64,000 bases of DNA from Candidatus Schekmanbacteria bacterium. Lineage in GTDB: Bacteria > Schekmanbacteria > GWA2-38-11 > J061. The number at the start of each line of letters is the position of its first letter. The first letter of the stretch is position 1. The notes beneath the pieces were generated by a model that ran no database searches, had not been told where the DNA came from, and saw only the letters and a program-made list of their open reading frames with translations. Shown here piece by piece: positions 16,650 through 38,953 of the stretch. Position numbers and translations under genes: made by a program. The DNA lies in assembly GCA_016219965.1 (NCBI GenBank), contig JACRJM010000010.1, forward strand, positions 124,001 to 188,000, written 5' to 3'.

Positions 16650-16665
16650 TTTATATTTAGCCTCC

Positions 16666-19001: not shown

Positions 19002-19106
19002 CTTCTCGTCCTTTCACATCCAGGTCTGTTTGAAATTAGTTCCATTAAAAATCACACTAAGCCCTATGGAAGTCAAGAAATTTATTATTGAGCGATGAAC
19101 AAGAAG

Positions 19107-19122
19107 AGCAAATACTGTGCCA
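19107..19122 (-). promoter_or_regulatory. Sigma-54 promoter before the receiver-cytochrome/Rieske operon
   Basis: Minus-strand reading TGGCACAGTATTTGCT has GG and GC ten bases apart and a full TGGCAC half. Transcription would start near 19096, about 95 bases before the start codon at 19001. A near-palindrome (CTGATAT and ATATCAG, 19157-19177) lies about 35 bases upstream and might be a regulator site. Confidence 0.75.
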
Positions 19123-19258
19123 AGGAATTTGAGAAACCTTAATCTAAGGCAAGAGACTGATATATTGAGTCATATCAGCAAAAAATAAATTTCAACGAAA
19201 TTTAAAGAAAAAAAATCATTAGACAAAATGTCAAAACAGAAGCTGAAGTGACATGATG

Positions 19259-21244: not shown

Positions 21245-21259
21245 TTCATTCCTCTTTGT

Positions 21260-22228
21260 CTAATGCTTCCCTCGGTGTTTTTTGTCCTTCATTATCATTT
21301 CATATTCAAGCGGATGCTCTTCAATCATGTCCTCTTTGGAAATTTTCCCGTTCCACCAGACCCAGCTCATCGGGAAAACCTTGGGATTGAAATGAACATT
21401 ATAGAAATGCCATATAAGGATGGCCAACGTGCAAAGCAATCCTTCGTCGCTGTGAGCCTCCTTGCAGATATCAACAATTGTCTTGCCGAACATATTTATT
21501 GATTCTACTTCTACCCACATGAGAAAACCTGAACCTATCATTACAAGACAGCCCCAGTAAACAGCCCAGTAATCGAATTTTTCAATGTAGGAGAAACGTC
21601 CGAACTTTGGCTTCTCGGTAGCATATCCAAAAAAATATTTTATCATCTGGATTACATCAAAAATATCCTTTGGCCCCGGAAGAAGTTCAAGGAAATCCTT
21701 TCTCCCCTGCCGCGTAAAAGGCGTATAAATCAGAACATGATAGGTAAACATAGCTATAAGCCCAACTGCACCTATCCTGTGGATGAACGTGACAGTTCCC
21801 ATCCCTCCGATAAGTTTAATTAAGAACGAGGCAATTCCCGTATAATAAAACTTCTCAGGCATTCCGGTTAAAATAAGGATAATACAGCTTGAGAAAAGCA
21901 GCATATGCTGGGCCCTGAAGTTTATTCCGAATCTTACAAAGAAATCCTCACCTTCCTTTTCTGCCAATATTCCATGACTTGCCGCATCAGCCTTTGCTCT
22001 TTCCATTTTAGCTATTTCTTTAGCAGGCTGGTTTTTAATATAATCAAGAAGGGCTTTCTCCTTTATGCTTGCATAACCTTCAAGAATATCGGAAGCAATC
22101 TTTTCAACCTCCTCTTCCTTATAGCCATTGCCGTATTTCTCGCGCAATTCCTCTATGATCTGTTTTCTCACCTTGTCCCTGAGTTCATTTCCGTTATCTG
22201 CCAAGTCTTTATCATTTTTCTCGTTCAT
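21260..22228 (-). CDS. Cytochrome b (HydC/FdnI-like) subunit, third c/b module
   Basis: 322 residues. A charged, helical N-terminal extension of about 100 residues, rich in Glu and Lys, precedes a four-helix di-heme cytochrome b domain like that of formate dehydrogenase gamma and hydrogenase HydC: RAQHMLLF, IHRIGAV, the TYHVL segment and LIWHFYNVHFNP hold the candidate His ligands. The conserved tail FPMSWVWWNGKISKEDM is shared with the two sister genes. Start at 22228 is chosen because its ATG overlaps the TGA of the upstream cytochrome c (ATGA). The N-terminal extension is absent in the sisters. It probably exchanges electrons between quinol and the nine-heme partner encoded just before. 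Confidence 0.88.
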   Translation of the reverse strand: MNEKNDKDLADNGNELRDKVRKQIIEELREKYGNGYKEEEVEKIASDILEGYASIKEKALLDYIKNQPAKEIAKMERAKADAASHGILAEKEGEDFFVRFGINFRAQHMLLFSSCIILILTGMPEKFYYTGIASFLIKLIGGMGTVTFIHRIGAVGLIAMFTYHVLIYTPFTRQGRKDFLELLPGPKDIFDVIQMIKYFFGYATEKPKFGRFSYIEKFDYWAVYWGCLVMIGSGFLMWVEVESINMFGKTIVDICKEAHSDEGLLCTLAILIWHFYNVHFNPKVFPMSWVWWNGKISKEDMIEEHPLEYEMIMKDKKHRGKH

Positions 22229-23307
22229 TCTCTGTTTTCCTTCCTTTTTTGCATCCTTTTTCGCAAATCGAGCATTATGTGAATTATGAGAACAAGCATT
22301 GTAGAAATCGTAAGAACCATAAAAGCCTTGGAAATATAATATACGATGCCCGATTCCTTGCTCTTGGGATTTATATGGACTTTCCCCTTTGCGAAATTTA
22401 CATTTGCTCCCGGATGGCATTTACCGCAAGTCTTAGGAATGTTGTTTATATTTATGGAAGACCCGGGATCCTCTGAAGCCCTTATATCATGATACCCGTG
22501 ACAGCTTGAACAGTTTGCCGCCTTCTTTACTCCGAATTCTACGGCTATCCCATGAAAGCTCTCATCGTAAGTCGCAACCTGTTCAGTGGGTATGCCGTAT
22601 TTCTCCATTATCTGCACTTTATCATGACAGGCTGAACATGTTTTTGTAATATGAGCGGCAGAAACCGTTGACCTTGCATCTTCGGGTTTGAATATATTAT
22701 GTTCGCCATGACAGCTTGTACATACTGGAACATCTTTGTTTCCTGCTTTGAATTGGGTGCCATGGATACTTGTATTGAAATCCACATATTCCTGAAGGTG
22801 GCACTTACCGCAGGTCTTGGGGATATTTTCCCTCGCATCAGCAGACCTTAAATCTGAAGGCTTGAATATATTGTGTTTGCCGTGGCAGTCCTGGCATTGC
22901 GGTGCAGACTGGTTCCCTGCAAAAAGAGCTTTGCCATGAATGCTGTTCTTGTATTCTATATATTTCACAGTCTCAGGAGCGCCGGACGGATTGCCGAGGA
23001 AATGGCACTGGTTTGCGCAGTTTACCTTACCTATCACATTTCTGTGCGGTATCTGTTTCACATCTGTGTGACAGTCAGTACAAAGCTTCTTTCCATGAAC
23101 AGTTTCGGAAAACTCTTTAAAGTTGATATAAAGACTAATAACTTTTCCGGTCTTCAGAGGATTAGCAAAACCTACTTTGCCGTGACAGACAAAACACTTT
23201 GAGTTTTCCTCATCTGCATGGACTGTTGCAGGAATGACAAAGAAAGCACAAAAGAGTGAAGCCATGAAAAAAAATCCTCTAAATTTTTCTGCTGCCTTAA
23301 GATCCAT
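22225..23307 (-). CDS. Nine-heme cytochrome c with C-terminal anchor, third c/b module
   Basis: 360 residues: a signal sequence ending near VHADE, eight CXXCH plus one CX3CH (CANQCH), and repeated blocks of the form SIHG/FHG ... CxxCHGxHxI ... TCGKCH. A C-terminal membrane helix (AFMVLTISTMLVLIIHIML) and basic tail keep it at the inner membrane. It begins directly at the stop of the preceding cytochrome b gene (TAAATG) and overlaps the following one by four bases. It is homologous to the N-terminal part of the fused protein at 25240-27201, so the pair with 21260-22228 is a split version of that protein. Confidence 0.88.
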   Translation of the reverse strand: MDLKAAEKFRGFFFMASLFCAFFVIPATVHADEENSKCFVCHGKVGFANPLKTGKVISLYINFKEFSETVHGKKLCTDCHTDVKQIPHRNVIGKVNCANQCHFLGNPSGAPETVKYIEYKNSIHGKALFAGNQSAPQCQDCHGKHNIFKPSDLRSADARENIPKTCGKCHLQEYVDFNTSIHGTQFKAGNKDVPVCTSCHGEHNIFKPEDARSTVSAAHITKTCSACHDKVQIMEKYGIPTEQVATYDESFHGIAVEFGVKKAANCSSCHGYHDIRASEDPGSSININNIPKTCGKCHPGANVNFAKGKVHINPKSKESGIVYYISKAFMVLTISTMLVLIIHIMLDLRKRMQKRKENRE

Positions 23308-24003
23308 TTATCTGCCTCCCTTAACCGCTTCACTCATCAGTCTATCGTATTCAAGAGGATGCTCTTTCCGCAACCGTTCCACATCTATCATGCCATCAAG
23401 CCACACACTGTCCATGGGGAATACGGAAGGATTAAGATGCACATTATATTGATGCCAAATGAAAAGAACAAGAAATGTTACTACTCCCTCATAACCGTGC
23501 AAAGCTATCAAGGTGTCAATCGCCCACTTGGGGATAACCGCCATGGATATATCCTTAAACCAGAGGACCAATCCTGACATTATCATTGCTATCATGCCAA
23601 CCGCTACACCCCAGTATTGAAATTTCTGGATGAAGTTAAACTTGTCAAAATTTGGGAAGGATTTTTTCCCTCCCAGATAATAAGCTATGGTGTTGAAAAA
23701 ATCTTTTACATCACTTATAGAGGGAATAATCTTTAAGAATTCATCATGGGCTTTTTTCGAGAATAAAACATAGAGGTAATGCCATATGCAAACTGCAATA
23801 AGAACGATCGCTGAAATACGATGAATTAAAGCCCTTGACTCATATCCTCCCAGAAAGTTTATTATAAATTTCCCCGCCTCGCTTTTATGCATTAGCAGTG
23901 CATATCCTGTTACGGCAAGCACAAGGGCGGAAACCATCAGAGATATATGTTGTGTTCTAAAAATCAGATTGACTCTTAAGACTTTTTCGCCTTCCTTTGC
24001 CAT
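23308..24003 (-). CDS. Cytochrome b (HydC/FdnI-like) subunit, second c/b module
   Basis: 231 residues, a bare four-helix di-heme cytochrome b domain: FRTQHISLMV, LIHRISAIVLIAVCIWHYLYVLF and LFIWHQYNVHLNPSVFPMD carry the His ligands. The end (RLRKEHPLEYDRL) matches the sister proteins. Its ATG overlaps the stop of the eleven-heme cytochrome gene (TGATG), and the next cytochrome c gene starts at its own stop, so these genes are tightly coupled. It should connect the quinone pool with the eleven-heme partner. Confidence 0.9.
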   Translation of the reverse strand: MAKEGEKVLRVNLIFRTQHISLMVSALVLAVTGYALLMHKSEAGKFIINFLGGYESRALIHRISAIVLIAVCIWHYLYVLFSKKAHDEFLKIIPSISDVKDFFNTIAYYLGGKKSFPNFDKFNFIQKFQYWGVAVGMIAMIMSGLVLWFKDISMAVIPKWAIDTLIALHGYEGVVTFLVLFIWHQYNVHLNPSVFPMDSVWLDGMIDVERLRKEHPLEYDRLMSEAVKGGR

Positions 24004-25247
24004 CAGCTCTCTCCCTTTTTCTTTTTTGATCTGTAATTAAAAATTTCGAGGAGCACATAAGACGCAAAAATCACAATAAGTATCCCTATGAACCAGATAT
24101 AGAATTTTCTTACATAATACTTGCCGGCGGAACTCTCTTTCTTGGCTTCTATATGGATCTTAGCATTTTTGAATTTTACTCCGGCTTGCGGATGGCATTT
24201 GCCGCAGGTGACAGGAAGGTTTTCAGGATTTACACTTGAAGCAGGGTCGGAAGGCGGAAGGATCTTGTGTACCCCATGACAGCTTCCGCAATTGGCAGCT
24301 TTAGCTTCTCCATATTCAAGAAGAACTCCATGGAAGCTTTCCATATATGTTTTATATCTGTTTGAAGACATGCCAAATACTTCCGTAAGTGTTACGTCTT
24401 CATGGCATTTCGAGCACATAGTTGGAACATTTGCCGTGTAGACAGAAGAGTTCTTGTCCTGCGGTGAGAGTATGCGGTGTTCTCCATGACAGTCGGTACA
24501 GACAGGGCTCTCCTTTTTTCCGTTTTCAATACCCTTCCAGTGAATTCCGTCCATATATTCTATCTCCACAGTCTTATGGCATCTTCCGCAGAGAGCAGGA
24601 ACATCTTTCTTGAATTCAAGGCTCCCCCGATTATCTACAGCCTTTATGCCGTGCGAACCATGACAATCGCTGCATACCGCTGCAACCAGAAGTCCTTTTT
24701 CCTCTATTGCTTTACCGTGTACGCTCTTTTCATATGACCTTATAAATTCGACCGATGGGAGTCCGTAGTCCTTCACAACCTCTTCATCTTCATGGCATTT
24801 AATGCAGATCTTTATCTGATTTATGGGCGATACATTGCAGTCCGGCTCACTTGTACATGATATATAATGACTCCCATGACAGTCACTGCAGTATGGAGGC
24901 GATGATTTTTTCGATTTCCTCGCCCATCCATGCACGCTCTGGCGGTATGTTTCAAATTCCTTGTCGTGGCAGTTCTCGCAGGATACTTTGGTATTCTTGT
25001 CATGTTCAAGGGAGCTTTTCACTTCACCCATCTCCGAGTGACAGTCACGGCATCCGAGTTTCCCGTGTATGGCAGAAGAATATTTTTCAACATCTATATA
25101 GAGCTTCTCTCCTTTGGAAGCTTTCATAATGCTTTTTTCTCCATGGCACTTCAGACATTCATCAGAAGCCAAAGCGCTGAAGGCAAACACAATAAAAACC
25201 ACAAGCAGCAGACAAAGCCTGATTTCAACATTTCTCGTTTTATTCAT
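24003..25247 (-). CDS. Eleven-heme cytochrome c with C-terminal anchor, second c/b module
   Basis: 414 residues from an ATG at 25247 with GAGGTCGG upstream; a longer reading from 25283 lies inside the previous gene. After the signal sequence (ending near ALASDE) there are eleven CXXCH sites with SIHG, SVHG and SFHG histidines between them, then a C-terminal helix (FYIWFIGILIVIFASYVLLEI). The block order matches the cytochrome part of the fused protein encoded upstream. An extra CTSEPDC pair after the fourth heme is not a heme motif and may be a disulfide or metal loop. Partner of the cytochrome b at 23308-24003. Confidence 0.9.
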   Translation of the reverse strand: MNKTRNVEIRLCLLLVVFIVFAFSALASDECLKCHGEKSIMKASKGEKLYIDVEKYSSAIHGKLGCRDCHSEMGEVKSSLEHDKNTKVSCENCHDKEFETYRQSVHGWARKSKKSSPPYCSDCHGSHYISCTSEPDCNVSPINQIKICIKCHEDEEVVKDYGLPSVEFIRSYEKSVHGKAIEEKGLLVAAVCSDCHGSHGIKAVDNRGSLEFKKDVPALCGRCHKTVEIEYMDGIHWKGIENGKKESPVCTDCHGEHRILSPQDKNSSVYTANVPTMCSKCHEDVTLTEVFGMSSNRYKTYMESFHGVLLEYGEAKAANCGSCHGVHKILPPSDPASSVNPENLPVTCGKCHPQAGVKFKNAKIHIEAKKESSAGKYYVRKFYIWFIGILIVIFASYVLLEIFNYRSKKKKGES

Positions 25248-27201
25248 TGCCGACCTCTTTCGTTTCCTGTTCAATTTTTTCAAGTTCCAGAGGGTGTTCT
25301 TCTTCCATCTCTTCCCTTGATATCTTACCGGTAAGCCATGTCCAGTTCATTGGATAAACATCGGGATTGAAAATTACGTAGTAAATATGCCAAACAAGTA
25401 TGGCAAGAGTGGCAAGCCATGCTTCATAATAGTGGATGACCTCTGAGACGTCAAATAAGAGCTTCGGTAAATACATCATCACTTCATTTTCGAACCATAG
25501 TACAGCCCCTGTTGCCGCCATCACAAAGGTCCCCCATACAAGTGCCCAGTATTCGCTTTTTTCTATATAATTAAACCGGTCATATTTTGGTCTTTCTCCT
25601 TTGCCAAGAGCCATATACATGAGATTCATCAATGCATCCTTAGCATCTTTAAATACAGGGATCATTCCCTTAAGAAAAGATCTTCCTCTTTTTGTGACAA
25701 TGATGAAATAGACATGATAGAGAGCTGCGGCTGTCATGACTGCAGCTGCTATCCTATGAACAAGGCCTCTCATAGATGCCCCACCCTCGATGATCTTGAA
25801 CGGATAGCTCCACCATGAGTCCGGGAACTTAAGGGCAAACCCTGTTATTACAAGCACAATGAAAGATGTGAGGAGCATCAGATGCTGAACTCTTTCGCTT
25901 AAGCTCATCCTCTCGTAGTATATTCCAGACCTATGCGCATGAGGGATTTCTCCACGGTACTTTTTCTGCGCTTTCCTTATAAAATCGAGGAGGTTGTGTG
26001 CTCCCATTCCGGCAATGGTCGCGATAATCAAGAAGATGTAAAACCACTTCAGATAAAGAGTGACCCTGCTCTCCATAGAGTTGCCGGCTTCCGACGCCAT
26101 CAGATGGATGCTCCCTTTCATGAAATTTTCGCTTGAACCGGCATGGCATTGTCCGCAGGTCTTTGCCAGGTTGTTCTTGCTCACCATTGACTCAGGGTTA
26201 CTTGAAGGGAGCACAGAATGGACTCCGTGACAGCTTCCGCAGTCTGCAACCGTAAGCTCACCCTGCCTTGCAGCAAGTCCGTGATAGCTGTCCATATAGC
26301 TTGTCACGCGCTCAGCAGATACTGTAAATTCCTTTGAAAGCCTTAAATCACCATGACACCTGGCACAGGAGTTAAAGACTATCTCACGCCCGCCGTTCCC
26401 TTTCTCATCAGATTTAAGCGCGCTTATTGTATGAATCCCGTGGCAGTTAGTACACACAGGGGAAGACGATATCCCCTTCATTGCAGCAGTATAGTGTATG
26501 CTGTTCACGTACTGTTTTAATATGCCGTAATGACATTTGCCGCATGTTTCAGGAACTTTTACCCTTGAAACCGTTGAATCCTGCTCAACAGGGCTTTTGA
26601 TGCTGTGCGAGCCATGGCAGTCGGTACACACTGCAGCAGCCATCACTCCTTTTTCAATGGACTGTCCGTGAATGCTGTTGTTGTATTCAACATATACCTT
26701 TTTCGAGTAAACACCTCCGGTGACAGCAACGAATTTAAGATCTGAGTGGCAGACCGCACAGGCTTTTGGAATTTCAGCACGGAGAAGGTCGCGTCCTTTG
26801 TTTCCCATGGTAAATATCTTATGATTCCCGTGACAGGACACACAGTCCGGCGGACGAACATCTTTTCCCTTCATCACTCCTGTATGGATACTGCTATTAA
26901 GATCCTTCGCTTCTTTTTCATGGCAACCGCTGCAAATCTCCAGCGGTGCAAGCTTGCTCCTTGAATGAGGGTCTTCAGTAAATTTTATATCCTGATGACA
27001 GTCCGCGCATTCCATACCATCATGGGCATAAGGGATATCGCCTTTCTCGGCTTTAATATCATGGCAGTCTATGCAGGCAGGATGCTCTGGCTCTGAAGCG
27101 GATTCAGACAATCCGGGAAAAGAAAGGAAAAAAAATAATGCAATAACAAAACAAACAATAAATTTTGCTTTATGATTATGAATACCTGCAGCTCCTCTCA
27201 T
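25240..27201 (-). CDS. CbcL-like fusion: eleven-heme cytochrome c plus cytochrome b
   Basis: 653 residues. A signal sequence is followed by eleven CXXCH sites (CIDCH to CGQCH, roughly residues 45-350), one membrane helix (FYIFLIIATIAGMGA), a basic linker and a HydC/FdnI-like four-helix cytochrome b (SLSERVQHLMLLTS, LVHRIAAAV, ILVWHIYYVIFNP). This is the domain plan of CbcL, the Geobacter inner-membrane quinol dehydrogenase used with low-potential extracellular acceptors. The ATG at 27201 follows GGGAGGGGG and overlaps the stop of the small upstream gene by four bases. It is the first and only fused member of three tandem c/b modules. Direction of electron flow cannot be read from sequence. 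Confidence 0.9.
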   Translation of the reverse strand: MRGAAGIHNHKAKFIVCFVIALFFFLSFPGLSESASEPEHPACIDCHDIKAEKGDIPYAHDGMECADCHQDIKFTEDPHSRSKLAPLEICSGCHEKEAKDLNSSIHTGVMKGKDVRPPDCVSCHGNHKIFTMGNKGRDLLRAEIPKACAVCHSDLKFVAVTGGVYSKKVYVEYNNSIHGQSIEKGVMAAAVCTDCHGSHSIKSPVEQDSTVSRVKVPETCGKCHYGILKQYVNSIHYTAAMKGISSSPVCTNCHGIHTISALKSDEKGNGGREIVFNSCARCHGDLRLSKEFTVSAERVTSYMDSYHGLAARQGELTVADCGSCHGVHSVLPSSNPESMVSKNNLAKTCGQCHAGSSENFMKGSIHLMASEAGNSMESRVTLYLKWFYIFLIIATIAGMGAHNLLDFIRKAQKKYRGEIPHAHRSGIYYERMSLSERVQHLMLLTSFIVLVITGFALKFPDSWWSYPFKIIEGGASMRGLVHRIAAAVMTAAALYHVYFIIVTKRGRSFLKGMIPVFKDAKDALMNLMYMALGKGERPKYDRFNYIEKSEYWALVWGTFVMAATGAVLWFENEVMMYLPKLLFDVSEVIHYYEAWLATLAILVWHIYYVIFNPDVYPMNWTWLTGKISREEMEEEHPLELEKIEQETKEVGNE

Positions 27202-27383
27202 CTCTGTCCCCCTCCCTCTTTCTTCTGCTGGTAAACAGGACAACTTTTGAAATTCCCGGACAGGCAGAATTCCATTATTTCCTTCTTGCTTGGAAATTTA
27301 ATGCCTTCCTTAAATCCCAGGCATTTCACCACTGCCTCTTCGCTGTAGTAGGTACAGCGTATAGTTACATTCAGTTTATCCAT
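27198..27383 (-). CDS. Small Cys-containing cytoplasmic protein coupled to the CbcL-like gene
   Basis: 61 residues with no signal or membrane helix. Four cysteines stand out: C10, C21 and the pair in FCLSGNFKSCPVY near the C-terminus. The TGA overlaps the ATG of the CbcL-like gene (ATGA), a sign of translational coupling and so of real expression. AGGG stands seven bases before the ATG. I do not recognise the family; the CxxGxFxxCPVY ending resembles short Cys motifs seen in small proteins near redox genes, possibly a metal, cluster or thiol-redox site. A regulatory or assembly role for the downstream cytochromes is only a guess. Confidence 0.7.
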   Translation of the reverse strand: MDKLNVTIRCTYYSEEAVVKCLGFKEGIKFPSKKEIMEFCLSGNFKSCPVYQQKKEGGGQR

Positions 27384-27622: not shown

Positions 27623-27644
27623 GATACTTATTACTGTTAGAATG

Positions 27645-29021
27645 CTATTGCCCTTCTTCGAAATCAGAGCGCTTGATGTTGTATTTTTTGATTTTCCTGT
27701 AGAAGGTCTTGGTCCCAACGCCGGCCTGCCTTATGGCACTTGCCACGTTTCCGCGATATTTTGCCATTATTTCCCGCAGATAATTGCTCTCATAGATATC
27801 AAGCCATTGAGGAAGCGAATAACCTGTTATATCCACTGTCTTTTTGACATTTTCTCTTGAATCATCGGGAAGATCCAGTTTTGAAATGGTGTTGCCATGT
27901 TCAAGTATTACGCCCCTCTCTATTATATTCTCAAGCTCCCTCACATTGCCGGGCCATCTGTAGCGCATCATCTTATCGAGTACATCCTGAGATATGGCGG
28001 ATATATCCTTACCCATCTTTTCAGCATTTTTCCTCAGGAAATGGAGGGCAAGAATCGGTACATCTTCCATCCTTTCGCGCAGCGGCGGGATATGGATGGG
28101 AACTACGTTTATCCTGTAGAAAAGATCTTCCCTGAAATTTCCTTTTTTTACCTCTTCCACAAGGTTTTTGTTTGTGGCGCAGATTATCCTGACATTCACT
28201 TTTATGGTGGAGTTTCCGCCAACCCTTTCAAACTCCATTTCCTGAACAAACCTTAAAAGCTTCACCTGCATGGTTTGTGTTATATCCCCTATCTCATCGA
28301 GAAAAACCGTGCCTCCGTCTGCAAATTCGAATTTGCCCAACTTCTGCCGCACAGCACCGGTAAATGACCCCTTTTCATGTCCGAAGAGTTCGCTTTCGAG
28401 CAGCGTTTCCGGAAGCGCCCCGCAGTTTATGGTCACAAACCTTTTGGATTTTCTGTAGCTGTTAAAATGCACAGCCCTTGCCACGAGTTCCTTGCCTGTG
28501 CCGGTTTCTCCTGTAATCATTACAGTCGAATCCGTAGGAGCAACCGTGGTTATGAGATCAAAGATGGATTTAATCTTGTGGTTCTGGCTGATTATATTGC
28601 CAAAGCGGTTTTTTTCTTCGACCTGGCTTTTAAGATATATATTCTCTTCGAGGAGTTTTAACCTCTCCAGAACTCTTTCAATGACAAGGAGTATCTCTTC
28701 AGACTCAAAGGGTTTGGCAAGATAGTCAACGGCTCCTCTTTTCATGGAGCTTACAGCTGTCTCGATGCTGCCGTGGGCTGTCATGATTATCACGGCTGTT
28801 TCAGGATATTTATTTTTTATAATATCGAGAAGTTCCAGCCCATCCATCTCAGGCATCCTTATATCAACCACAGCAACGCTGAACTGTTTAGCCTCAAGGA
28901 CTTTTAAAGCCTCTTTGCCGTTAAATGCAATTTCCACTTCATAGCCTTCCTTCTCAAGCACTCTTTTCAGGTGCTGGCATATAATACGCTCATCATCAAC
29001 AACAAGTATCTTCTGTCTCAT
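27645..29021 (-). CDS. Sigma-54-dependent response regulator (NtrC family)
   Basis: 458 residues from the ATG at 29021, which has GGAGG just upstream; an ATG five codons earlier precedes that site. Receiver (about 1-120) with VAVVDIRMP at the phospho-acceptor and LAKPF at the Lys; AAA+ domain with Walker A GETGTGKE and sigma-54 loop GSFTGA (Ser replaces the first Ala of GAFTGA, a known tolerated form); C-terminal Fis-type helix-turn-helix ([20 protein letters not shown]). It follows the CXXCH-containing kinase by a short gap and precedes the c/b operon. Likely targets are the -24/-12 promoters at 27396, 19107 or elsewhere in this island. Confidence 0.93.
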
Positions 29022-29047
29022 TATCGCCTCCGTCATTTTAATACACC

Positions 29048-31156
29048 TTATGCCTCATGATGAACCTCATCTGTAAATACGATAGTAAACTCAGTCCAGC
29101 TTCCTTCTTTACTCTCAACAGATATTGTCCCTTTATGAAGTTCAATTATCCTTTTTACTATTGCCATTCCAAGTCCCACACCCTTGCTTTTTGTAGTAAA
29201 GAACGGATCGAATACCTTGTATATATTCTCCCTGCTTATACCTATACCGGAATCCCTGATTTTCACAGTTACCTTTTTCTTCCCATCTTCTTCATCAGAA
29301 ATTGACGTCACTACTATTATACCACCTTTTGGCATTGCTTCAGCAGCATTCTGGAGGAGATTTGAAAAAACCTGTTTTATCTTGAAGGCATCCAGTTTTA
29401 TTACCGGCTCATGTAAGGCACCTTTCTGATAATTCTTTTTAATAGAAATCCCCTTAAGTGCAAACTCCTGTTCAAATTCCGAAAGCACTTCGTCGAGCAC
29501 TTCATTGATGTTATAATCAAAGACCTCGATGTTAAGAGGACGTGAAAAATCAAGAAGGTCCGAGACTATGGTGTTAAGCTTTTTTACACCCTCTGAAACG
29601 CCTTCAAGTGTTTTCCGGCTTTCGATATTATCTCCAAAATCATACTTTAAAAGCGATATGCCCATGCTGACGTTTTGCAATGGATTTTTTATCTCATGTG
29701 CTATACCTGCAATCATCTGTCCCACTGCTGAAAGCCTCTTTGAAAGTTCCAGTTCTTCTCCTATTCTTTTCTGAGCCGTTATATCCCTTACGTATTTAAT
29801 TACCTGAAAAACATCCCCATCCGCATTTCTTATGGGAAAGGTATATATCATCCAGTGTCTTATCTTTTTACTGTCACTATCGGAAAGCTCTCTTTCAATC
29901 TGGTAAGGCTTTCCCGTGGTAAGAGTATCCTTGACCGGGCAGACATCGCAGACATTGTCCCTTTTTGCAAATTGTTTATAACAGAAATCAGATTCATATG
30001 CATCTCCTTCCACATCCATCATCTCTTCCATTGCCCTGTTCATTGTAATTATTCTGTAATCCTTGTCAATTATACATATACCATCGGTTATACCATCAAA
30101 AAGGGTCTCAAGACGGTTCTTTGTTTCTATTATCTCCCTGCTCCATTTCATCATCTCCTCAATCCTTACCCTTCTTGAATTTATAACTATTGTATACATG
30201 CCAACAAAAAATATGAGGATAATAGAGGCACCGGAGAGAATGATTATATTCCTGTTAACAGAGGCAATGAAATGTGTGACATCAGTATAAGGTACTGATA
30301 TAGCGATAGCCCATGACTTTCCAGTATCGCGCGATTCTTTCCTGACAGATATCAGATTAATCGGGTAATAAACAACAAGCTTATCCTCGTTCCCTTTTAT
30401 GCCATATACAGCAGTGCCGCTATTGCCTGAAAGCATTTTTCTCTCTGTTTCAAACCTGTTTGTATGGCAGTCAAAACATTCCTCTGTATTTTTTAAAATA
30501 TTTCTTCCTTCCATTTCCTTGTGGAATGGATGGTGGACGAGGTTGCCATCACTTCCAATGATCCATGCGTAACTGCGTTCACTGGTCTTTAGCGGCTTTG
30601 CAAATTGCTCTGCAAGTCCTGTCACATCTATAAGGCAGCCTATGATATATTCATTGTCAGTATCCGGCGCGGAGTTATAACTTCCCGTAGGAAGAATAAT
30701 CATCTGCCTCTGTCTTGACCCCGGGATTAATGACTGAAGTTGTCTGTCTCCCTGCTGTGTTAATTTTATCGCTTCCCTGAGCGCTTTCCTGTCAATTGAT
30801 CTGCATTTATTTTCTTTAGGAAAAAATCTGAGCTCATTATTCCCGATTATAAAAACCGCACAAATATTTTCAATGTTCATAAAATAGCCGGAAAGAAAAA
30901 GGACATCCTTTTCGAAACCATTTCCCGAGTTAAGAGTACTTCCTGAAATTACATAATTTGCAAGATTAAGGTCATCTTCAATCCCTTTCAGGAACCTCCC
31001 GATTGAATATGAAACCTCGCGGGCAACAAGAATTTGCTGGTCAGAATACCGCTTAACAAGCTCTTCCTCAGATGACTTCTGGAGTCTTATTGAAAGGATG
31101 AATATCGAAGGGATAACCAGCAATATTATTACAAATGGAATTATATTTTTTTTCAT
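29048..31156 (-). CDS. Sensor histidine kinase with a c-heme motif in its periplasmic CACHE domain
   Basis: 702 residues. Membrane helices at about 5-22 and 298-322 bracket a 275-residue periplasmic double-CACHE region (membrane-distal to proximal, ending GSDGNLVHHPFHKEMEG). Just after that comes CFDCH at residues 227-231, a c-heme attachment site. A PAS domain follows with the Cys cluster CYKQF...CDVCP common in anaerobe PAS kinases, then HisKA (AHEIKNPLQN) and HATPase (NLLQNAAEAM, DSGIGI, GVGLGM). The first gene downstream is its response regulator. Heme in a periplasmic sensor domain suggests redox or ligand (NO, CO, O2) sensing outside the membrane, fitting control of the surrounding cytochrome genes. 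Periplasmic c-heme PAS sensors are known in Geobacter chemoreceptors. Confidence 0.9.
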   Translation of the reverse strand: MKKNIIPFVIILLVIPSIFILSIRLQKSSEEELVKRYSDQQILVAREVSYSIGRFLKGIEDDLNLANYVISGSTLNSGNGFEKDVLFLSGYFMNIENICAVFIIGNNELRFFPKENKCRSIDRKALREAIKLTQQGDRQLQSLIPGSRQRQMIILPTGSYNSAPDTDNEYIIGCLIDVTGLAEQFAKPLKTSERSYAWIIGSDGNLVHHPFHKEMEGRNILKNTEECFDCHTNRFETERKMLSGNSGTAVYGIKGNEDKLVVYYPINLISVRKESRDTGKSWAIAISVPYTDVTHFIASVNRNIIILSGASIILIFFVGMYTIVINSRRVRIEEMMKWSREIIETKNRLETLFDGITDGICIIDKDYRIITMNRAMEEMMDVEGDAYESDFCYKQFAKRDNVCDVCPVKDTLTTGKPYQIERELSDSDSKKIRHWMIYTFPIRNADGDVFQVIKYVRDITAQKRIGEELELSKRLSAVGQMIAGIAHEIKNPLQNVSMGISLLKYDFGDNIESRKTLEGVSEGVKKLNTIVSDLLDFSRPLNIEVFDYNINEVLDEVLSEFEQEFALKGISIKKNYQKGALHEPVIKLDAFKIKQVFSNLLQNAAEAMPKGGIIVVTSISDEEDGKKKVTVKIRDSGIGISRENIYKVFDPFFTTKSKGVGLGMAIVKRIIELHKGTISVESKEGSWTEFTIVFTDEVHHEA

Positions 31157-31221: not shown

Positions 31222-32739
31222 TTACCTGATTACAGCACCCGGCACATCGGTTCCGGTAATTTTTTTGTAGGAAATCTGAAGCAATCTTACAGCATATTCA
31301 GTGTTATGCACACCCCGGCTTTTATCAGAGTCAACAAAAGACCAGTTGAAGGCACTCTGTTTTTCCTCATCAGTTGCACTGGAAGAAAATATAAAATAGG
31401 ATCTGCTAAATGAATCTGCTCCTTCAGTTACATTGCCTGATTTCAGTATCTCAGTTTTCAACAGCGCCAGCAATCCATCAATTTCACTCTGTATTCCCTC
31501 TTTAGTTCCATCTCCATCATAATCTCCGCGGGCAGTCCTGTTGAATGTCTCAAGTCCATCATGGCACTGCTGACATGCTGAAAAAAGCTTATTCCCGTCT
31601 TTATCTATCACCCTGAATGTATGCCCACCAATTGTGTTATGTCCTGTCTCACCATCAGCAGGAGTATCAAAACCATGACAGTCAAGGCATTTATTATCAA
31701 AACTGGAATGGGCGGAGTCGTCTATCGTTTCGCCGAATTCGTAGGCCCCGGTACCTGAAAACATCTGCGCCTGATTGAATCTTGGAGTCACGCCTTCGGA
31801 TACTGCATCATCAACATTTTCTATCTGGTCATTGTGGCATGTATAGCAAATTGCGCCTTTGCCCGCGCTTACAGTCGTATTGGTGATAGGTCCGGGAAGG
31901 TCCACATCTCCCTGTGCTCTTAACTGAAAATCATTGCCTGAACCATGAGGTGAATGGCATGCCCCGCATGTTACAGCATTTCGGGCTTCCCCCAAAGTAA
32001 CGGAGCTGTCATAAATTTTATCAGCACTGTGACATTTAAGACATGAATTATTTACCTCAGGATGCCCCTCTAAATTCTCAAGAGAATTAGGGAAAGGAGA
32101 GTTGACCCACATGTCATACTGTCCTTTAGACACGGAATCATCAACATTTTTTGTATGGCAATATCCGCAGACCTCTGCTTTTAAAGCCAGAAGTGTTCTG
32201 CTGGATAAACCCCTTGCTGAGCGCGCCGTATAGTGCGGTGCATATTTTGCTCCTGCCAGATGGCAGGATTCACATCCCACGTTCTCAAGCTTATTAACCG
32301 GATTTTCATCATAGCCGCCATTATCTGCGGATTTACTGAAACCTGTCGTATGACAGCGGTAGCATTCGTTACTTCCACCGGCAACAACAGCAAAGGCATT
32401 TGCATGTTTGGTAGTTTCCCATATTTCTCCTGTTCCTTCATGGCAATATATACATCTGCTTGAACCGATATAAGTCCTGCCAAGAAATGGGGCCTTGGTA
32501 ACTCCCTTTTTATCAGAACTGCTCGTGCTTCCTCCTCCCCCGCCGCTACACCCTGCAAAGGAAAAAATCAGCAGAGAAAATATTATAAATGTTGAAATTA
32601 CCTGAACAGCTACGGTCAGCAAGGAAAGGTTTTTCCCTTTCTCTCCTAGTACTTCCAAAGGAATATCCTGTCTGCCTGACTTTAGAGAGCATGGAGCACC
32701 TTCAATAATAACAAATAGCCGTTGAAGAGAATCAAACAT
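31222..32739 (-). CDS. Nine-heme outer-membrane-type cytochrome lipoprotein (c554-like start)
   Basis: 505 residues with nine CXXCH sites: CIYCH, CYRCH, CESCH, CGYCH, CLKCH, CGACH, CYTCH, CLDCH, CQQCH. The lipobox SFAGC is followed by a Gly/Ser linker typical of surface lipoproteins. The segment YIGSSRCIYCHEGTGEIW resembles cytochrome c554-type repeats. The ATG at 32739 has AGGA upstream but gives an n-region of over 40 residues before the hydrophobic core; an internal start would give a more normal leader. It lies eight bases after the twelve-heme lipoprotein gene and downstream of the porin. It may be the outer-surface terminal cytochrome of a porin-cytochrome conduit. Confidence 0.85.
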   Translation of the reverse strand: MFDSLQRLFVIIEGAPCSLKSGRQDIPLEVLGEKGKNLSLLTVAVQVISTFIIFSLLIFSFAGCSGGGGGSTSSSDKKGVTKAPFLGRTYIGSSRCIYCHEGTGEIWETTKHANAFAVVAGGSNECYRCHTTGFSKSADNGGYDENPVNKLENVGCESCHLAGAKYAPHYTARSARGLSSRTLLALKAEVCGYCHTKNVDDSVSKGQYDMWVNSPFPNSLENLEGHPEVNNSCLKCHSADKIYDSSVTLGEARNAVTCGACHSPHGSGNDFQLRAQGDVDLPGPITNTTVSAGKGAICYTCHNDQIENVDDAVSEGVTPRFNQAQMFSGTGAYEFGETIDDSAHSSFDNKCLDCHGFDTPADGETGHNTIGGHTFRVIDKDGNKLFSACQQCHDGLETFNRTARGDYDGDGTKEGIQSEIDGLLALLKTEILKSGNVTEGADSFSRSYFIFSSSATDEEKQSAFNWSFVDSDKSRGVHNTEYAVRLLQISYKKITGTDVPGAVIR

Positions 32740-32747
32740 TTTAATTC

Positions 32748-33662
32748 CTACTTAACAAGTTTTTTGAAGTTTATCCTATGGCATTCCTGACAAAATTCTC
32801 TTTCATGGCAGACAACACATGATCTTCCATCCCTGCTTGCTACAGTCCTGTGATTTGGAACCCAATCAGGTTCATAATGTGTCGTAGGTCTTTGCTCATG
32901 GCAACGGCTGCAGAAATCTGCCTGATGACATACGGCGCACTTATCCCTGTCCTGCGTTGCATATCTGCCATGTATATCCTGCTTCCATGAAAGGCTATGG
33001 GAAGATGGCCTTACCTTTGTATGGCATTCTTCACAACTTGCAGACTTATGACATAAGAGACAGTCATCTGAGTCAGTTCTGGCACTCCTTCCATGAAACT
33101 CTTTCCAGGAGCTGTCGTGTGATACCGGAATTGTATGGTCAATGGGCTTACGTCCCTCCCTTATTTCATCGTGGCATGTACTGCATTCCGAAACTGTCAT
33201 ACGATGGCATTTGGAACAGACTTCCATTTCAGGTATGTCTTCAACCGAAGTTTTATCTCTTGTCTTGATCTCAGGATGGCATTCAAGGCATCCAAAGCCC
33301 AAATCAATATGCACCTTGTGGTAAAACTTCACATCTTTTATCATCATCTGCATGTCACGCAGGAAAACCTTGTTGTCTTCCCTTGTGTGACATGATGAAC
33401 ATTTGTCAGGTGGATCTGATTCGTTTATCTCATGGCATTGGGAACATTGTTCGTGATTGGGAAGCGTCATCTTTTTTCCATCAGCATTTGTCTCATGACA
33501 CTGGCTGCATTCAGCCCCGACTGCTCCTCCTGTTTCAGTATGGAACTTATGTGAAAAAACGAGGCCCAGCTCGTCTTCTCTGCATCCCTGGATAAATATA
33601 CAAAGAAGCAGTACTGCAAATATGAATGAGCAGATTAGCGTTATATTTTTTTTATCTAACAT
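32748..33662 (-). CDS. Twelve-heme cytochrome c lipoprotein
   Basis: 304 residues with twelve CXXCH sites, one heme per 25 residues. A hydrophobic leader ends in FIQGC, an acceptable though imperfect lipobox. His-rich spacers (FSHKFH, FYHKVH, HDSSWKEFHG, HSLSWKQDIHG) supply distal ligands; the repeats in the last half (CxxCH...CxxCH about every 11 and 35 residues) suggest internal duplication. Encoded 19 bases after the porin gene, it is the best candidate for the heme wire inside the porin, equivalent in role to OmaB or MtrA, though heme number and order do not prove homology. Confidence 0.87.
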   Translation of the reverse strand: MLDKKNITLICSFIFAVLLLCIFIQGCREDELGLVFSHKFHTETGGAVGAECSQCHETNADGKKMTLPNHEQCSQCHEINESDPPDKCSSCHTREDNKVFLRDMQMMIKDVKFYHKVHIDLGFGCLECHPEIKTRDKTSVEDIPEMEVCSKCHRMTVSECSTCHDEIREGRKPIDHTIPVSHDSSWKEFHGRSARTDSDDCLLCHKSASCEECHTKVRPSSHSLSWKQDIHGRYATQDRDKCAVCHQADFCSRCHEQRPTTHYEPDWVPNHRTVASRDGRSCVVCHEREFCQECHRINFKKLVK

Positions 33663-33681
33663 TACACCACCCCTTAAAACC

Positions 33682-35073
33682 TTAAAAATTAAGTCCCAGC
33701 TCTACCCTCACACCCTGCAGGTAATCCAGCTTAGAATAAGGCACGGCAAGCTTATCATCCTCTTCATAAGAATATGAAACAAGAAAATCAAGATTGTCGG
33801 TTATATATCCCTTGAAATAGGATGTAAGTCCATAGGTCTGGTATTTTTTCAAGTTATAATCATAAACCCTGTAAAACCCTCTGACATTGAATGATACATT
33901 ATTGAGGTTCTTGCCGAACAGCTTGTTGATAGAAGAGAAGCTTTGATCCAGCTGCTGACTAAACTCTCCGCTAATCTCCTGCGATTCAGTTTGAAACCTT
34001 TTAGAACGCCTGCTGTCCTGATAGTGTCTCCACTCCACAAGTATATCAGAACCCTTTAATGGTAAATTCTTGCAGTCAAGTCCTGCTGTGTATTCCTGAG
34101 AATCAGAGTTATACTGGTTTCCCTCATTATTATTTATGAGGTTTTGTATCTTGTAAGATGCACTCACGCCAAAATAATCAAGGAATGGCTGATGGACCAT
34201 AACATAATAATCTTCGAATGGCTGAAGCCGGAGTAATCCCAGCCTCGGCACTTTGAATCCCTTTAAGCCTCGGTTTTCCGCTGAAGTGTAGTCGAATTCA
34301 TACTCATCAGAACTGCTTCCGCCAAGCCTTCTGTAATATTCGAAGAGAACCCTTGTGCCGTACTTTCTCGATGAATAGTTTGCACTTACATCAATGTCCT
34401 TGGGGTCTTCATTGATGGCAGCAAACTTGATATCCATATCAAGGTTCTTTGTTATTTCCTGATAAATAGTAAAATCAGAACTGTAGTCAAGATACTTTAC
34501 CATTCTGACTTCCAGTCTGGTATCCTTCACAGGTTTAAAACCAAGGTTGCCTCCCCATATCTCATTTTTTCTGGGCTCGTATCTAAGACTTACACGACTG
34601 CCGCCGAAGGCGCTGAAATCAACATAGGGAATATTCTTTACCGCAATCTCAGCCCCATCAAAGTGCGCTACCTCGGCACCATAAAAATACTGCCTTCCTG
34701 CTTTCACGCTTGCTATGTTGAAAATGTTTTTATATTCTGCCCATGCGCTGTAAATCTCGCTCAGTTTGTCGCTTCCGCTATAAGTGTTTTTTACATCCCG
34801 GAAATAGTCTCTCCTCATGGTATCGCCGATATCCCAGGCAATCCTCCCTGAAATAAAGGTTTCAAGATTTTCGAGACCGTAGCCATCGCTTCTGAATGTT
34901 ACATACTGGTAAAAATCGTGGTCTTCGTCATTGGTCCTTATATCTTCATAGCGGGCAGACCTGAAATCATAGATAGTCTTAAGATTCAGGCTGTAATCTT
35001 TGGAAAATACGCAAATCGGAGTAAATAAAATCCAGAAGAAACACAGAACTGCCTTGAGCAATGTTCTTTTCAT
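33682..35073 (-). CDS. Outer-membrane beta-barrel porin of a putative porin-cytochrome conduit
   Basis: 463 residues: a Sec signal (ending near VFSKD), then alternating beta-strand sequence rich in Tyr, Asp, Arg and Gly, ending in ELGLNF with the terminal Phe typical of BAM substrates. It has no MtrB/PioB-type N-terminal CXXC. Extended strands such as YLDYSSDFTIYQE and FNVRGFYRVYDYN are amphipathic. The ATG at 35073 follows GAGGATATTG; the TTG before it is rejected. Two multiheme lipoproteins follow directly, the arrangement of Geobacter ombB-omaB-omcB. The porin would sheathe the heme wire across the outer membrane. It might instead be an ordinary porin that merely sits in the operon. Confidence 0.85.
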   Translation of the reverse strand: MKRTLLKAVLCFFWILFTPICVFSKDYSLNLKTIYDFRSARYEDIRTNDEDHDFYQYVTFRSDGYGLENLETFISGRIAWDIGDTMRRDYFRDVKNTYSGSDKLSEIYSAWAEYKNIFNIASVKAGRQYFYGAEVAHFDGAEIAVKNIPYVDFSAFGGSRVSLRYEPRKNEIWGGNLGFKPVKDTRLEVRMVKYLDYSSDFTIYQEITKNLDMDIKFAAINEDPKDIDVSANYSSRKYGTRVLFEYYRRLGGSSSDEYEFDYTSAENRGLKGFKVPRLGLLRLQPFEDYYVMVHQPFLDYFGVSASYKIQNLINNNEGNQYNSDSQEYTAGLDCKNLPLKGSDILVEWRHYQDSRRSKRFQTESQEISGEFSQQLDQSFSSINKLFGKNLNNVSFNVRGFYRVYDYNLKKYQTYGLTSYFKGYITDNLDFLVSYSYEEDDKLAVPYSKLDYLQGVRVELGLNF

Positions 35074-35134: not shown

Positions 35135-36598
35135 TTATTTATTGTGTAAAGCAATTTCAATATCATTAAGAAGATAAAGCCTTGTTTCATCATCCTTGAA
35201 ATATTTTTCAATTGTTTCCAGCATCTGGTCTATCATATCCTTTGAGGCAAAATCTGACAAAGCCTTAGCGGTTGCAGATACAACTGACTTATCGCTGTCT
35301 TTCAGCATTTTTAATAGTTCCGGGGCACCATCCTTTCCTTTCACTTTCCCCCATGAGTAGACAGCACCTGCACGCACATCAGGTTCATCATCATTTAATA
35401 AAGTCTTCAGCGTCTCTTCAACCCTGGCACCTTTAAGTTCTGCAAGCGACCAGGCTACAGAACTTCTCATCTCGAAATTCTGATCTTTAGCCCTGCTTAT
35501 GAGCTCATCCTCTAAACCTTCAAATCCCATTTTTTTAAGCGACGATGCCGCCTCTGTACGTACATCAAAATCATCATCATCAAGAGATGGAACAAGCTGT
35601 TTCGCCACTGTCCTGTCTTCTAAAATACCGAGCGCTTTTACTGCTTCAAGCCTTACAAACTCATCTTCATTGTCAAGTATTTTCAATATATCAGGAACAG
35701 CCTGCATAACCTTTGATGCGCCTAAAAGCTCGCATGCCATGCTTTTTATGTCTGTATCATTATCCTTTAACGACTTCATGAGAAGATCTTTCCCGCCTTT
35801 ATCTCCTGTCTTCATCAGTGAAGCGGCAGCGTGCAGTCTCACTTCATCATCTTCATCTTTGTTATTTAAAAGCTTTCTGAGGCTGTCTGCAAGGTCTCCG
35901 ATATTGATTTCACCGATAAGATCGCAGGCTGTAACTTTTACATCAATATCTTCATCACCAAGGGCTTTTTTTATACTCTCAGCAAAACTTTTGCCTTTGG
36001 CAGTTGAGAGTTTTTTAAGAGCATACATTCTGTTCCATTCATCGTTTTTATCTAAAAGCATTTTATTAAGTTCATCTTCGCTAAGCTTCTCACCTGTTTT
36101 TTCAAGCACCTCTGCTGCTGCGTTTCTTACCTCGTAATCTTCACCGTAAGTGCTGCGCACTTTTTTCAGTATTTCCACTGCAGAGGCATCTTTCATCCTT
36201 TCAACGCTCTCTATGGCTATAAGTTTGAGGTCTATATTATTACCGGTAAGGAATTCTATTATGCTCCTTTTGGCAACTTCATCAAGGAAGGAGTCATCCT
36301 TTATACCTTTCTTTTTTAGCTCCATATATGATTCAAGTGCTTTTTTTGTTTTTCCTCTTTTGAGCATAATCTCAGCCTTGACAACAAGCGCATCGCTGTT
36401 GCGGGGATCTTTTTTCAAAAGTTCATTTATCACCTTGTCTGCTTCCTCAGTCTTACCTTCGGCGATAAGCGACTTTGCCTGCTTTATCAATCTTTCCCCT
36501 CCGATAACACATCCTCTTCCGCATGACGACAGGGACAATGCAAGGATAGCGCAAAATGCCAGAAGCTTCAGAAATGGTCTCTTTTTTCTTTCATTCAT
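35135..36598 (-). CDS. Lipoprotein with TPR and HEAT-like repeats
   Basis: 487 residues. The lipobox LSLSSC is followed by one or two TPR units (about 35-105: AKSLIAEGKTEEADKVI, AEIMLKRGKTKKALESY) and about ten HEAT/PBS-lyase-like repeats, each near 30 residues with a D-DV-R-AA pattern (DDEVRLHAAASL, DEFVRLEAVKAL, DFDVRTEAASSL, EPDVRAGAVYSW). Such solenoids bind partner proteins. The gene is 61 bases upstream of the porin gene on the same strand, so it may help assembly of the conduit. It follows a strong terminator, suggesting expression partly separate from the gene before it. No catalytic function is evident. Confidence 0.88.
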   Translation of the reverse strand: MNERKKRPFLKLLAFCAILALSLSSCGRGCVIGGERLIKQAKSLIAEGKTEEADKVINELLKKDPRNSDALVVKAEIMLKRGKTKKALESYMELKKKGIKDDSFLDEVAKRSIIEFLTGNNIDLKLIAIESVERMKDASAVEILKKVRSTYGEDYEVRNAAAEVLEKTGEKLSEDELNKMLLDKNDEWNRMYALKKLSTAKGKSFAESIKKALGDEDIDVKVTACDLIGEINIGDLADSLRKLLNNKDEDDEVRLHAAASLMKTGDKGGKDLLMKSLKDNDTDIKSMACELLGASKVMQAVPDILKILDNEDEFVRLEAVKALGILEDRTVAKQLVPSLDDDDFDVRTEAASSLKKMGFEGLEDELISRAKDQNFEMRSSVAWSLAELKGARVEETLKTLLNDDEPDVRAGAVYSWGKVKGKDGAPELLKMLKDSDKSVVSATAKALSDFASKDMIDQMLETIEKYFKDDETRLYLLNDIEIALHNK

Positions 36599-36696: not shown

Positions 36697-38766
36697 CTAT
36701 TCTATAAGCAAGCTCTTAAGCGCGATACCCTTATGGTTTGCAGTCGAATTATCAGTTACTGCCAAACCGAAATTATAGGTATTGCCTGTTTCGAATACTA
36801 CGTCTCCTACATTTCCTGTATCGAGTTTTCTTGTAATTAATACATTCCATGTTCCGGTTATATAGGCGGATTCAACACTTAAGTCTTTATTTCCGCCTAC
36901 TGCACCTCTGTCATCGAACAGTATATTTCTGGCAATATGTCCTGTTGTAATGGTTATTACCCCATCCTTATTGTAATAGTCGCCCGATCCAACTGTGCCA
37001 CTAAATACTGCAAGTGAGCCGTCAAGCCATATATCTGATGTTGTATAAATTGAATAACCATCGTTATCGAATAACTTACTTGCAGGAATCAGATCATTGG
37101 CGCCAAGTGATATACTTGTCCATATGAACTGAGGTATTACAGTTGATGTAACAGGAAGAAGATTTGAAATCGTAAGGCTTCCTCCGTCATCAGCAGTGGC
37201 AATCGGGAAGGCAGAGTTTGCATCCCTTGCTAAGCCGAGAGGTGCTGTATTTGCCGCTTTCCATTCCCAAACATCAAGTACGCCGCCTGTACCTGCACCC
37301 ATTGTCTGCGCAGCCAATGGAGTAAGAACAACATTGTTAAAACTCCTGTCAGCATGGCAGTCTGTGCATGTTTCAGTCAATGGATCTACTGATGGATGGA
37401 CGAAAGCAAGGTCCTGTACATCATCTGAGTTATTATGACACATGGCACAATTGGCGAGCGGTGCAACAGTGTTAGTTATAACGCCACTGTCATTTTTGGT
37501 CAGATGGCATGTTGATGCGCATCCTGCCTGAGCAAATGTCAATCCGGCCCTTCCGGCACTGTCTGTTATCGGGAACATCATGTACAACTTGTCTTCGTTT
37601 GTTTGCGCAGGATCAAAATTTACCCATCCTGTACCATTATATCCAAGTACTCCAGCAGTTGCACTATTGGTAGCATCTGGCCAGGTTGCCTTTATATACA
37701 GGTTCTGTGAATCATGTGCTGCCTGAAGTGTAACAGTGATCAAATCATCAAAAAGTGCACCATGACCACCGCCTACAACGTTTCCTTTGGTGGGGAATGG
37801 AACAGGAGTTATTACACCCCATATCAGAGAGCTAAGCTCGCTGTTTGTAACTGAATCTGATACCACAGTTGCAATCAGGTCAGCTGCCAATGCACTTTGA
37901 GCTATAGTGAATACTTTATCTTCTACTGTTATAACTGAAGTACGTATGTCTCCGGTGTTAGCTGACACAGCGTAGGAAATTACTCCAGGTCCTGTTCCTG
38001 AGAGGGTTTCCAGTGATATGGTGATCCATGGAGCGCCCGGTGTAGCAGTCCAGTCGCAGGTAACATCCGTTGTAACTGTTATTACGCCCTCACCCCCTGG
38101 TGCATCGAATAAAGCCGGTAATGGATCACCACTAAGCAGGAATATACACTCACCGCTTGCAGCAGGAACCTGAACTATTGTAATGACTTGATCTTCTACA
38201 TTTATAGCAGCCTCACGAGCTTCAGTTACCACATTCTCAGCAACCGTAAAACTGATTACACCTGTGCCTGTGCCTGAATCTGTATTTAAAGTAATCCAGT
38301 CAGCTTCTGTTGTTGCAAGCCACGGGCAATTAGCTTCCGTTGAGACTGTGATTATACCGTCAGCGCCAACTGCCGGGAATTCAGGTGGGTTAGGAACAGG
38401 TATAAGTGTGAATGTACATGCTTCCGAAATTTCAAATGCATTCTTTTTTGTAGCTTTCTTACTTCCAACTTTTACAACAACACTCTTTTTACCGATTGTT
38501 GCAGTATCTTTAACAGTATATGTTCCTTTGATTGTTGTTCTTGTGATTTTTCCTGTCTTTTTGAAGGTCACTCCCGAGATTGTTACCTTTGCCTTTGACG
38601 TAAACCCGTTACCTTTGATTGTAATCGTGCCCTCACCCCCTATAGTGGCCGGGGTAGGTGAGTAGGTTACCTTGCTGATCTTAAGCGCTGCTTCTGATGC
38701 TGTTACTCCAATTGCAAAAACAAATAACATGATACAGAAAATACCGACTGCTTTTTTAAAACCCAT
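36697..38766 (-). CDS. Exported TIG-BACON-BACON protein with ethylbenzene-dehydrogenase-like heme domain
   Basis: 689 residues from an ATG at 38766 with GGAGGG upstream. Order: Sec signal (ending near ASEA); IPT/TIG fold (about 27-115, ISKVTYSPTPATIGGEG); two BACON-type domains (about 118-292, each with CPWLAT or CDWTAT, a WIT step and an ITVED or INVED strand); then a domain like the heme-b subunit of ethylbenzene dehydrogenase and related cytochromes (LYIKATWPDATN, FDDRG). Inside it are three c-heme sites: CASTCH (CX3CH), CAMCH and CTDCH, near residues 415-465. The beta modules suggest surface or matrix attachment, the heme domain an electron-transfer role. Flanked by a sigma-70 promoter and a strong terminator, it appears to be a single-gene unit. 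Confidence 0.85.
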   Translation of the reverse strand: MGFKKAVGIFCIMLFVFAIGVTASEAALKISKVTYSPTPATIGGEGTITIKGNGFTSKAKVTISGVTFKKTGKITRTTIKGTYTVKDTATIGKKSVVVKVGSKKATKKNAFEISEACTFTLIPVPNPPEFPAVGADGIITVSTEANCPWLATTEADWITLNTDSGTGTGVISFTVAENVVTEAREAAINVEDQVITIVQVPAASGECIFLLSGDPLPALFDAPGGEGVITVTTDVTCDWTATPGAPWITISLETLSGTGPGVISYAVSANTGDIRTSVITVEDKVFTIAQSALAADLIATVVSDSVTNSELSSLIWGVITPVPFPTKGNVVGGGHGALFDDLITVTLQAAHDSQNLYIKATWPDATNSATAGVLGYNGTGWVNFDPAQTNEDKLYMMFPITDSAGRAGLTFAQAGCASTCHLTKNDSGVITNTVAPLANCAMCHNNSDDVQDLAFVHPSVDPLTETCTDCHADRSFNNVVLTPLAAQTMGAGTGGVLDVWEWKAANTAPLGLARDANSAFPIATADDGGSLTISNLLPVTSTVIPQFIWTSISLGANDLIPASKLFDNDGYSIYTTSDIWLDGSLAVFSGTVGSGDYYNKDGVITITTGHIARNILFDDRGAVGGNKDLSVESAYITGTWNVLITRKLDTGNVGDVVFETGNTYNFGLAVTDNSTANHKGIALKSLLIE

Positions 38767-38823
38767 ATTATCCCTCCAGTTAATTTTTAATAAAATGATA
38801 GTGAAAATATGATACTTGGTGTC

Positions 38824-38853
38824 ATAATAGTTTGAATGCAATCCATTCGTCAA
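38824..38853 (-). promoter_or_regulatory. Sigma-70-type promoter for the TIG-BACON heme protein gene
   Basis: On the minus strand TTGACG and TATTAT are separated by 18 bases, close to the vegetative consensus. Transcription would start near 38817, giving a 50-base leader. A second, weaker pair (TTGACA and TAACAA, 17 apart) lies at 38882-38910, so tandem promoters are possible. Confidence 0.65.
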
Positions 38854-38953
38854 GTATCTTTTCATTAAAAGTATACTTTTTTTGTTACCACCTGACTTTA
38901 ACAGTGTCAAACATTTTTTTTATTTTTTAAAATATTTCAATCTAAAAACAATT

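Follow-up and report, generated by a model that had tools for sequence, protein, structure and literature searches.

A three-gene set on the minus strand of a 64,000-nucleotide stretch of Candidatus Schekmanbacteria bacterium DNA (GCA_016219965.1, contig JACRJM010000010.1, positions 124,001 to 188,000; hereafter the window) very probably encodes an electron conduit through the outer membrane that belongs to the porin-cytochrome (Pcc) class, with a barrel as sheath, a 12-heme cytochrome as wire and a 9-heme, OcwA-like cytochrome as outer end. The set covers 31222-35073 (-) and is transcribed in the order barrel, 12-heme lipoprotein, 9-heme lipoprotein; the open reading frames (ORFs) agree with a preliminary description of this DNA, which had listed a barrel-like protein ending in Phe followed by a 12-heme and a 9-heme lipoprotein. 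The same description had proposed a porin-cytochrome conduit, a proposal now supported by homology, by the pairing of the genes and by the co-divergence of the first two proteins.

The barrel ORF begins with an ATG at 35073, carries an N-terminal signal and ends in the residues LGLNF. In a 20-member alignment, its alternating hydrophobicity was 0.80, compared to 0.59 +/- 0.05 in shuffled columns, and a home-made scan counted 25 amphipathic peaks (23 once merged) compared to 14.5 +/- 2.9 in shuffles. The predicted barrel nature of this 463-residue protein is supported by the alternating hydrophobicity together with the terminal Phe; a search of PDB with the barrel profile produced no match at E 10. 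In the 12-heme protein, the 12 CXXCH motifs compare to a mean of 0.19 and a maximum of 3 in 2000 composition shuffles, and the histidines outside the motifs number exactly 12, sufficient for bis-His ligation of all hemes, and 10 of them are shared by 17 or more of the 19 aligned sequences. The 9-heme protein has nine CXXCH motifs, compared to a shuffle mean of 0.02 and a maximum of 1 (2000 composition shuffles). Lipoboxes (FIQGC, SFAGC) were assigned in the two cytochromes by a motif rule.

The pairing of barrel and inner cytochrome extends well beyond this phylum. A profile built from three 12-heme proteins had matches at 1e-15 in 64 of the 386 genomes sampled, many of the lower matches being short proteins of a 5-heme type, and all 18 of the best homologs from outside the phylum adjoin a homologous barrel. 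At 16 of these 18 loci, an ORF of 400-565 amino acids lies directly next to the cytochrome on the same strand, and a profile of the Schekmanbacteria barrels scored all 16 partner ORFs above every one of 107 controls (16 reversed, 16 shuffled and 75 other ORFs), the weakest partner reaching 9.5 bits and the top control 2.2. At the other two of the 18 loci, which are GC-rich, a 20-barrel profile also found a barrel homolog (85.0 and 68.8 bits). Comparison of the four Schekmanbacteria barrels with the 16 partners by hhalign gave a probability of 100 (E 1.3e-38, 399 columns; reversed sequences, 2.9). When the four-barrel profile was used alone, 24 of the 386 genomes were matched, 20 of them outside the phylum, and a multiheme cytochrome adjoins the barrel match in 17 of these 20. 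Pairwise identities of the barrels and of the 12-heme proteins correlate (r 0.83 over 19 pairs; 0.61 over 14 pairs with near relatives removed), with neither value reached in 5000 permutations, and the two trees contain the same main clades. By these comparisons, the Schekmanbacteria branch lies inside a widespread family of predicted barrel/11-14-heme pairs. Some of the outside sets combine a 6-10-heme inner cytochrome with a large lipoprotein, which is the Omb-Oma-Omc layout. One sampled genome (G377; L097, L107) carries four copies of a set composed of a barrel, a 6-heme protein, a large protein whose start is twin-arginine-like and a probable iron-sulfur (FeS) protein, as well as a fifth copy with a split barrel frame, which by gene content suggests that a conduit connected to a molybdoenzyme has been amplified. 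Searches for the 12-heme protein in viral contigs returned 70 pattern stretches with none confirmed, and those in plasmids returned nine records, none with 80% coverage.

Within the phylum, four Schekmanbacteria genomes were compared, including three designated G001, G002 and G003. The barrel is present in all four and the full-length 12-heme protein in three, and the trio is intact and in the same order in those of the window, G001 (L005) and G002 (L007). Compared to the window proteins, the barrels are 42-55% identical, the 12-heme proteins 48-56% and the third proteins 46-60%. Two barrel peptide patterns, in a scan of a contig collection that detects close relatives only, matched 74 stretches, with a relative confirmed only in Candidatus Schekmanbacteria bacterium GWA2_38_11. 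In FastTree trees, the Schekmanbacteria proteins form a well separated branch of their own (support 0.984 for the 12-heme protein and 0.997 for the barrel). The suggestion in the preliminary description that this might be a new lineage, therefore, holds for a distinct branch but not for one standing apart, as that branch is nested in the widespread family. One of the arguments offered for it, the absence of the N-terminal CXXC of MtrB, was rejected as a lineage mark: the barrel does lack a CXXC, but so do seven of eight MtrB/PioB-family (PF11854) proteins from other genomes, and the missing motif is therefore not diagnostic.

The most notable trait of the conduit is its outer subunit, which by domain content is built as OcwA, with a c554-like and an NrfA-like half. 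The c554-like start noted previously was borne out by a PF13435 match of 47.1 bits (cut-off 20.8), and the C-terminal part matched PF02335 at 28.9 bits (cut-off 24.1). The best solved relative was 6i5b, at E 3.4e-13 with the sequence and 9.5e-20 with a three-row profile, the alignment consisting of three colinear stretches, with the C-terminal helix region covered. The true start of the 505-residue ORF is uncertain because the chosen ATG gives an unusually long leader of ~64 residues. The three-row profile also found strong relatives at five other conduit loci (124-211 bits, compared to 17.8 bits for the best of 360 heme-preserving shuffles), with the C-terminal helix part covered, and weaker relatives at two more. 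Barrel/inner-cytochrome pairs thus repeatedly have an OcwA-like cytochrome next to them.

In the proposed mechanism, the barrel would span the outer membrane and sheathe the lipid-anchored 12-heme protein; electrons would pass through the barrel along the closely spaced bis-His hemes of that protein. Electrons would come from menaquinol by way of the neighboring membrane cytochromes (CbcL-like, Rieske/cytochrome b) and reach the 12-heme protein across the periplasm, and the 9-heme OcwA-like lipoprotein, presumably exposed on the outer face, would pass them to an extracellular acceptor such as an Fe(III) or Mn(IV) mineral, humics or a partner cell. The sequences themselves show the gene content, the heme and His counts, the pairing and co-divergence of barrel and 12-heme protein across the family and the OcwA-like build of the third protein; we infer complex formation, surface exposure, the quinol source, the outward direction and the acceptor.

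Several observations weigh against this conduit or limit how far it extends. The 12-heme gene was not found in G003, a 70% complete genome, though the barrel is present; an ORF judged by eye to be transposase-like follows the barrel there, in the place expected for the 12-heme gene (G003, L008 / L006, Schekmanbacteria GWA2_38_11). Among the 20 outside genomes matched by the barrel profile, the remaining three comprise one match that is not barrel-like, one with no multiheme cytochrome on the readable side and one cut by a contig end. Shared species history adds in part to the correlation of barrel and 12-heme identities. An AlphaFold2 model of the barrel from a two-row alignment was of low confidence (pLDDT 28.7), and the third protein in G002 has seven hemes and is without the lipobox Cys, so that surface anchoring is not conserved. 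These last two points would suit an ordinary porin accompanied by periplasmic cytochromes, with no wire through the membrane, a reading that the family-wide pairing of barrel and 12-heme protein and their co-divergence make very improbable.

It is rather unlikely that the conduit is run inward, taking electrons from Fe(II), a cathode or a syntrophic partner to the quinone pool. Such a direction would fit G001, where the conduit is paired with a Qrc-like set potentially capable of menaquinone reduction, but the block adjoining the conduit in the window holds a Rieske protein and a cytochrome b, a combination typical of quinol oxidation. Porin-cytochrome complexes do work both ways, as discussed for Mto and Pio (PMC4245776), whereas the OcwA-type outer subunit has been characterized as a terminal reductase (PMC6703420). 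The nature of that subunit also raises the prospect that the third protein is a reductase of soluble substrates (N- or S-oxides) from the NrfA/HAO/MccA superfamily, with the conduit feeding an enzyme and not minerals. Its NrfA-like C-terminal half is consistent with this, and OcwA itself reduces nitrite and hydroxylamine (PMC6703420). However, all nine counted motifs are CXXCH, and in the stretches aligned with 6i5b no His matches the His-His pairs that OcwA has over hemes 2 and 5, which makes such an enzyme quite improbable.

The genes of the conduit and of its surroundings are listed in the table below. A histidine kinase and a sigma-54 regulator do follow the conduit, as had been described, and the pair had been taken as a further mark of the lineage. 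That use of it fails, as in G002 the kinase heads a 13-gene block that is colinear with 14117-31156 (-) of the window at 42-76% identity, and the conduit of G002 is found on that contig at a distance of tens of kb. The kinase pair thus belongs to the respiratory block and not to the conduit, and its lack of linkage to the conduit outside this family counts against the proposed reading. In G001, a kinase fragment follows the conduit at the contig end (32% over 139 residues), and a 5-heme cytochrome, a molybdopterin protein, an FeS protein, NrfD and a cytochrome c precede it in a Qrc or ACIII layout, as in quinone-linked complexes. The CXXCH in the sensor part of the window kinase is kept in two G002 homologs, and the kinase is possibly a c-type heme redox sensor. 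The product of 25240-27243 has what we take to be a CbcL-like layout.

Table. Genes of the putative conduit and its neighbors in the window
Feature	Position	Strand	Basis
Rest of respiratory block: 11-heme, cytochrome b561, 8-heme, 16-heme, receiver-multiheme fusion, Rieske, cytochrome b, 9-heme	14117..25283	-	Colinear in G002, 45-76% identity
11-heme c + cytochrome b561-type membrane protein, candidate quinol-oxidizing feeder	25240..27243	-	PF01292, TIGR01583 and c7 matches; 51% identical in G002 block
Sigma-54-type response regulator; neighbor	27645..29036	-	Domain matches; G002 block
Histidine kinase, Cache-like sensor part with one CXXCH; neighbor, not conduit	29048..31156	-	Heads separate block in G002
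9-heme lipoprotein, OcwA-like (c554-like half + NrfA-like half), presumed outer terminal cytochrome, 505-aa ORF	31222..32739	-	PF13435, PF02335, PDB 6i5b
12-heme cytochrome, probable lipoprotein, presumed wire within barrel, 304 aa	32748..33662	-	12 CXXCH + 12 other His; homologs adjoin barrels
Outer-membrane barrel (porin), 463 aa, signal peptide, C-terminal Phe, no CXXC	33682..35073	-	ORF and profile comparison
HEAT-repeat lipoprotein directly upstream of barrel	35135..36598	-	34% identical homolog also upstream in G003
TIG/BACON/EB_dh protein, 2 CXXCH + 1 CX3CH	36697..38910	-	Domain matches, motif counts

The TIG/BACON/EB_dh protein may be another redox partner, in the periplasm or at the surface. 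Genes for three molybdopterin oxidoreductases lie to either side of the cytochrome region (1051-4278, 10229-12550 and 38954-41068, all on the minus strand). Inside the respiratory block, a 600-residue ORF at 17199-19001 (-) joins a response-regulator receiver domain and a NapC/NrfH-like cytochrome that is membrane-anchored and has 11 CXXCH motifs, and full-length homologs with 60-71% identity occur in all three other phylum genomes. A perfect sigma-54 consensus match lies ~100 bases upstream of this fusion, and a phosphorylatable quinol-side cytochrome, if that is what it encodes, would be unusual. A scan of the window for sigma-54 promoters gave 39 matches compared to 34.1 expected, with none just upstream of the conduit.

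The conduit gives an uncultured phylum a concrete and testable form of extracellular respiration, and it suggests a conserved module, made up of the two inner parts, that is combined with different surface reductases. Tentatively, and with somewhat less than even confidence, it can be placed in a recurring, as yet undescribed subclass in which an OcwA-type nonaheme protein from the NrfA/c554 superfamily serves as outer cytochrome, a subclass that would join the Gram-positive Thermincola line to the Gram-negative porin-cytochrome line and would be phylum-wide in Schekmanbacteria, implying ancestral extracellular respiration. With the OcwA-like subunit, defined proteins are at hand for testing how Gram-positive and Gram-negative cells came to share terminal reductases. 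An earlier description of this conduit was not found in literature on Schekmanbacteria cytochromes and extracellular electrons, on OcwA with a porin or on porin-cytochrome with a nonaheme, surveyed mostly below full-text level. A Geoalkalibacter protein that adjoins an OmcB homolog and is reported to be about equally similar to MtrA, OmhA and OcwA (PMC12016550) is a possible precedent.

Among known systems, the trio fits the Pcc class by its architecture and by the homologous pairs, the named Geobacter proteins being compared by description only. In two accounts, that class is defined by a small barrel of 18-22 predicted strands, an inner cytochrome of 5-14 hemes that co-evolves with it and an exchangeable outer cytochrome, an outer-membrane c-cytochrome being present in most clusters (PMC4245776, PMC6148476). 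With OmbB-OmaB-OmcB, ExtABCD, ExtEFG and the Anaeromyxobacter, Kuenenia and Ignavibacterium systems, the Schekmanbacteria set shares the small barrel (463 residues here), the adjacent inner cytochrome (12 hemes, inside the reported range), the variable outer cytochrome and the co-divergence of the first two, whereas its 12-heme protein is a probable lipoprotein and its outer subunit is OcwA-like with nine hemes. An ExtKL model found none of the 386 genomes above its cut-off. With MtrCAB, MtoAB and PioAB it shares the working principle of a cytochrome inside a barrel, but has 12 rather than 10 hemes and an outer subunit that is not of the MtrC build. Membership in the Mtr/Mto/Pio group was rejected, as PF11854 had no match in the barrel at E 0.1 and none in the four phylum genomes, and the inner cytochrome is not a decaheme. 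Comparison of the Schekmanbacteria barrels with eight MtrB/PioB proteins by hhalign likewise spoke against membership, with 17.9% over 49 columns. The 16 barrels from outside the phylum gave a distant link to MtrB (92.9%, 235 columns), and by these alignments a remote common origin may exist. Thermincola is a Gram-positive metal-respiring bacterium, and OcwA is its nonaheme surface reductase. With OcwA of Thermincola potens (PDB 6I5B), the outer subunit shares the nine CXXCH motifs, the c554-like N-terminal half, the NrfA-like C-terminal half and, by alignment only, a colinear C-terminal helix-bundle region; neither of the distal His-His motifs (hemes 2 and 5) is conserved, and the Schekmanbacteria gene, unlike that of OcwA, comes after an outer-membrane barrel and a 12-heme cytochrome.

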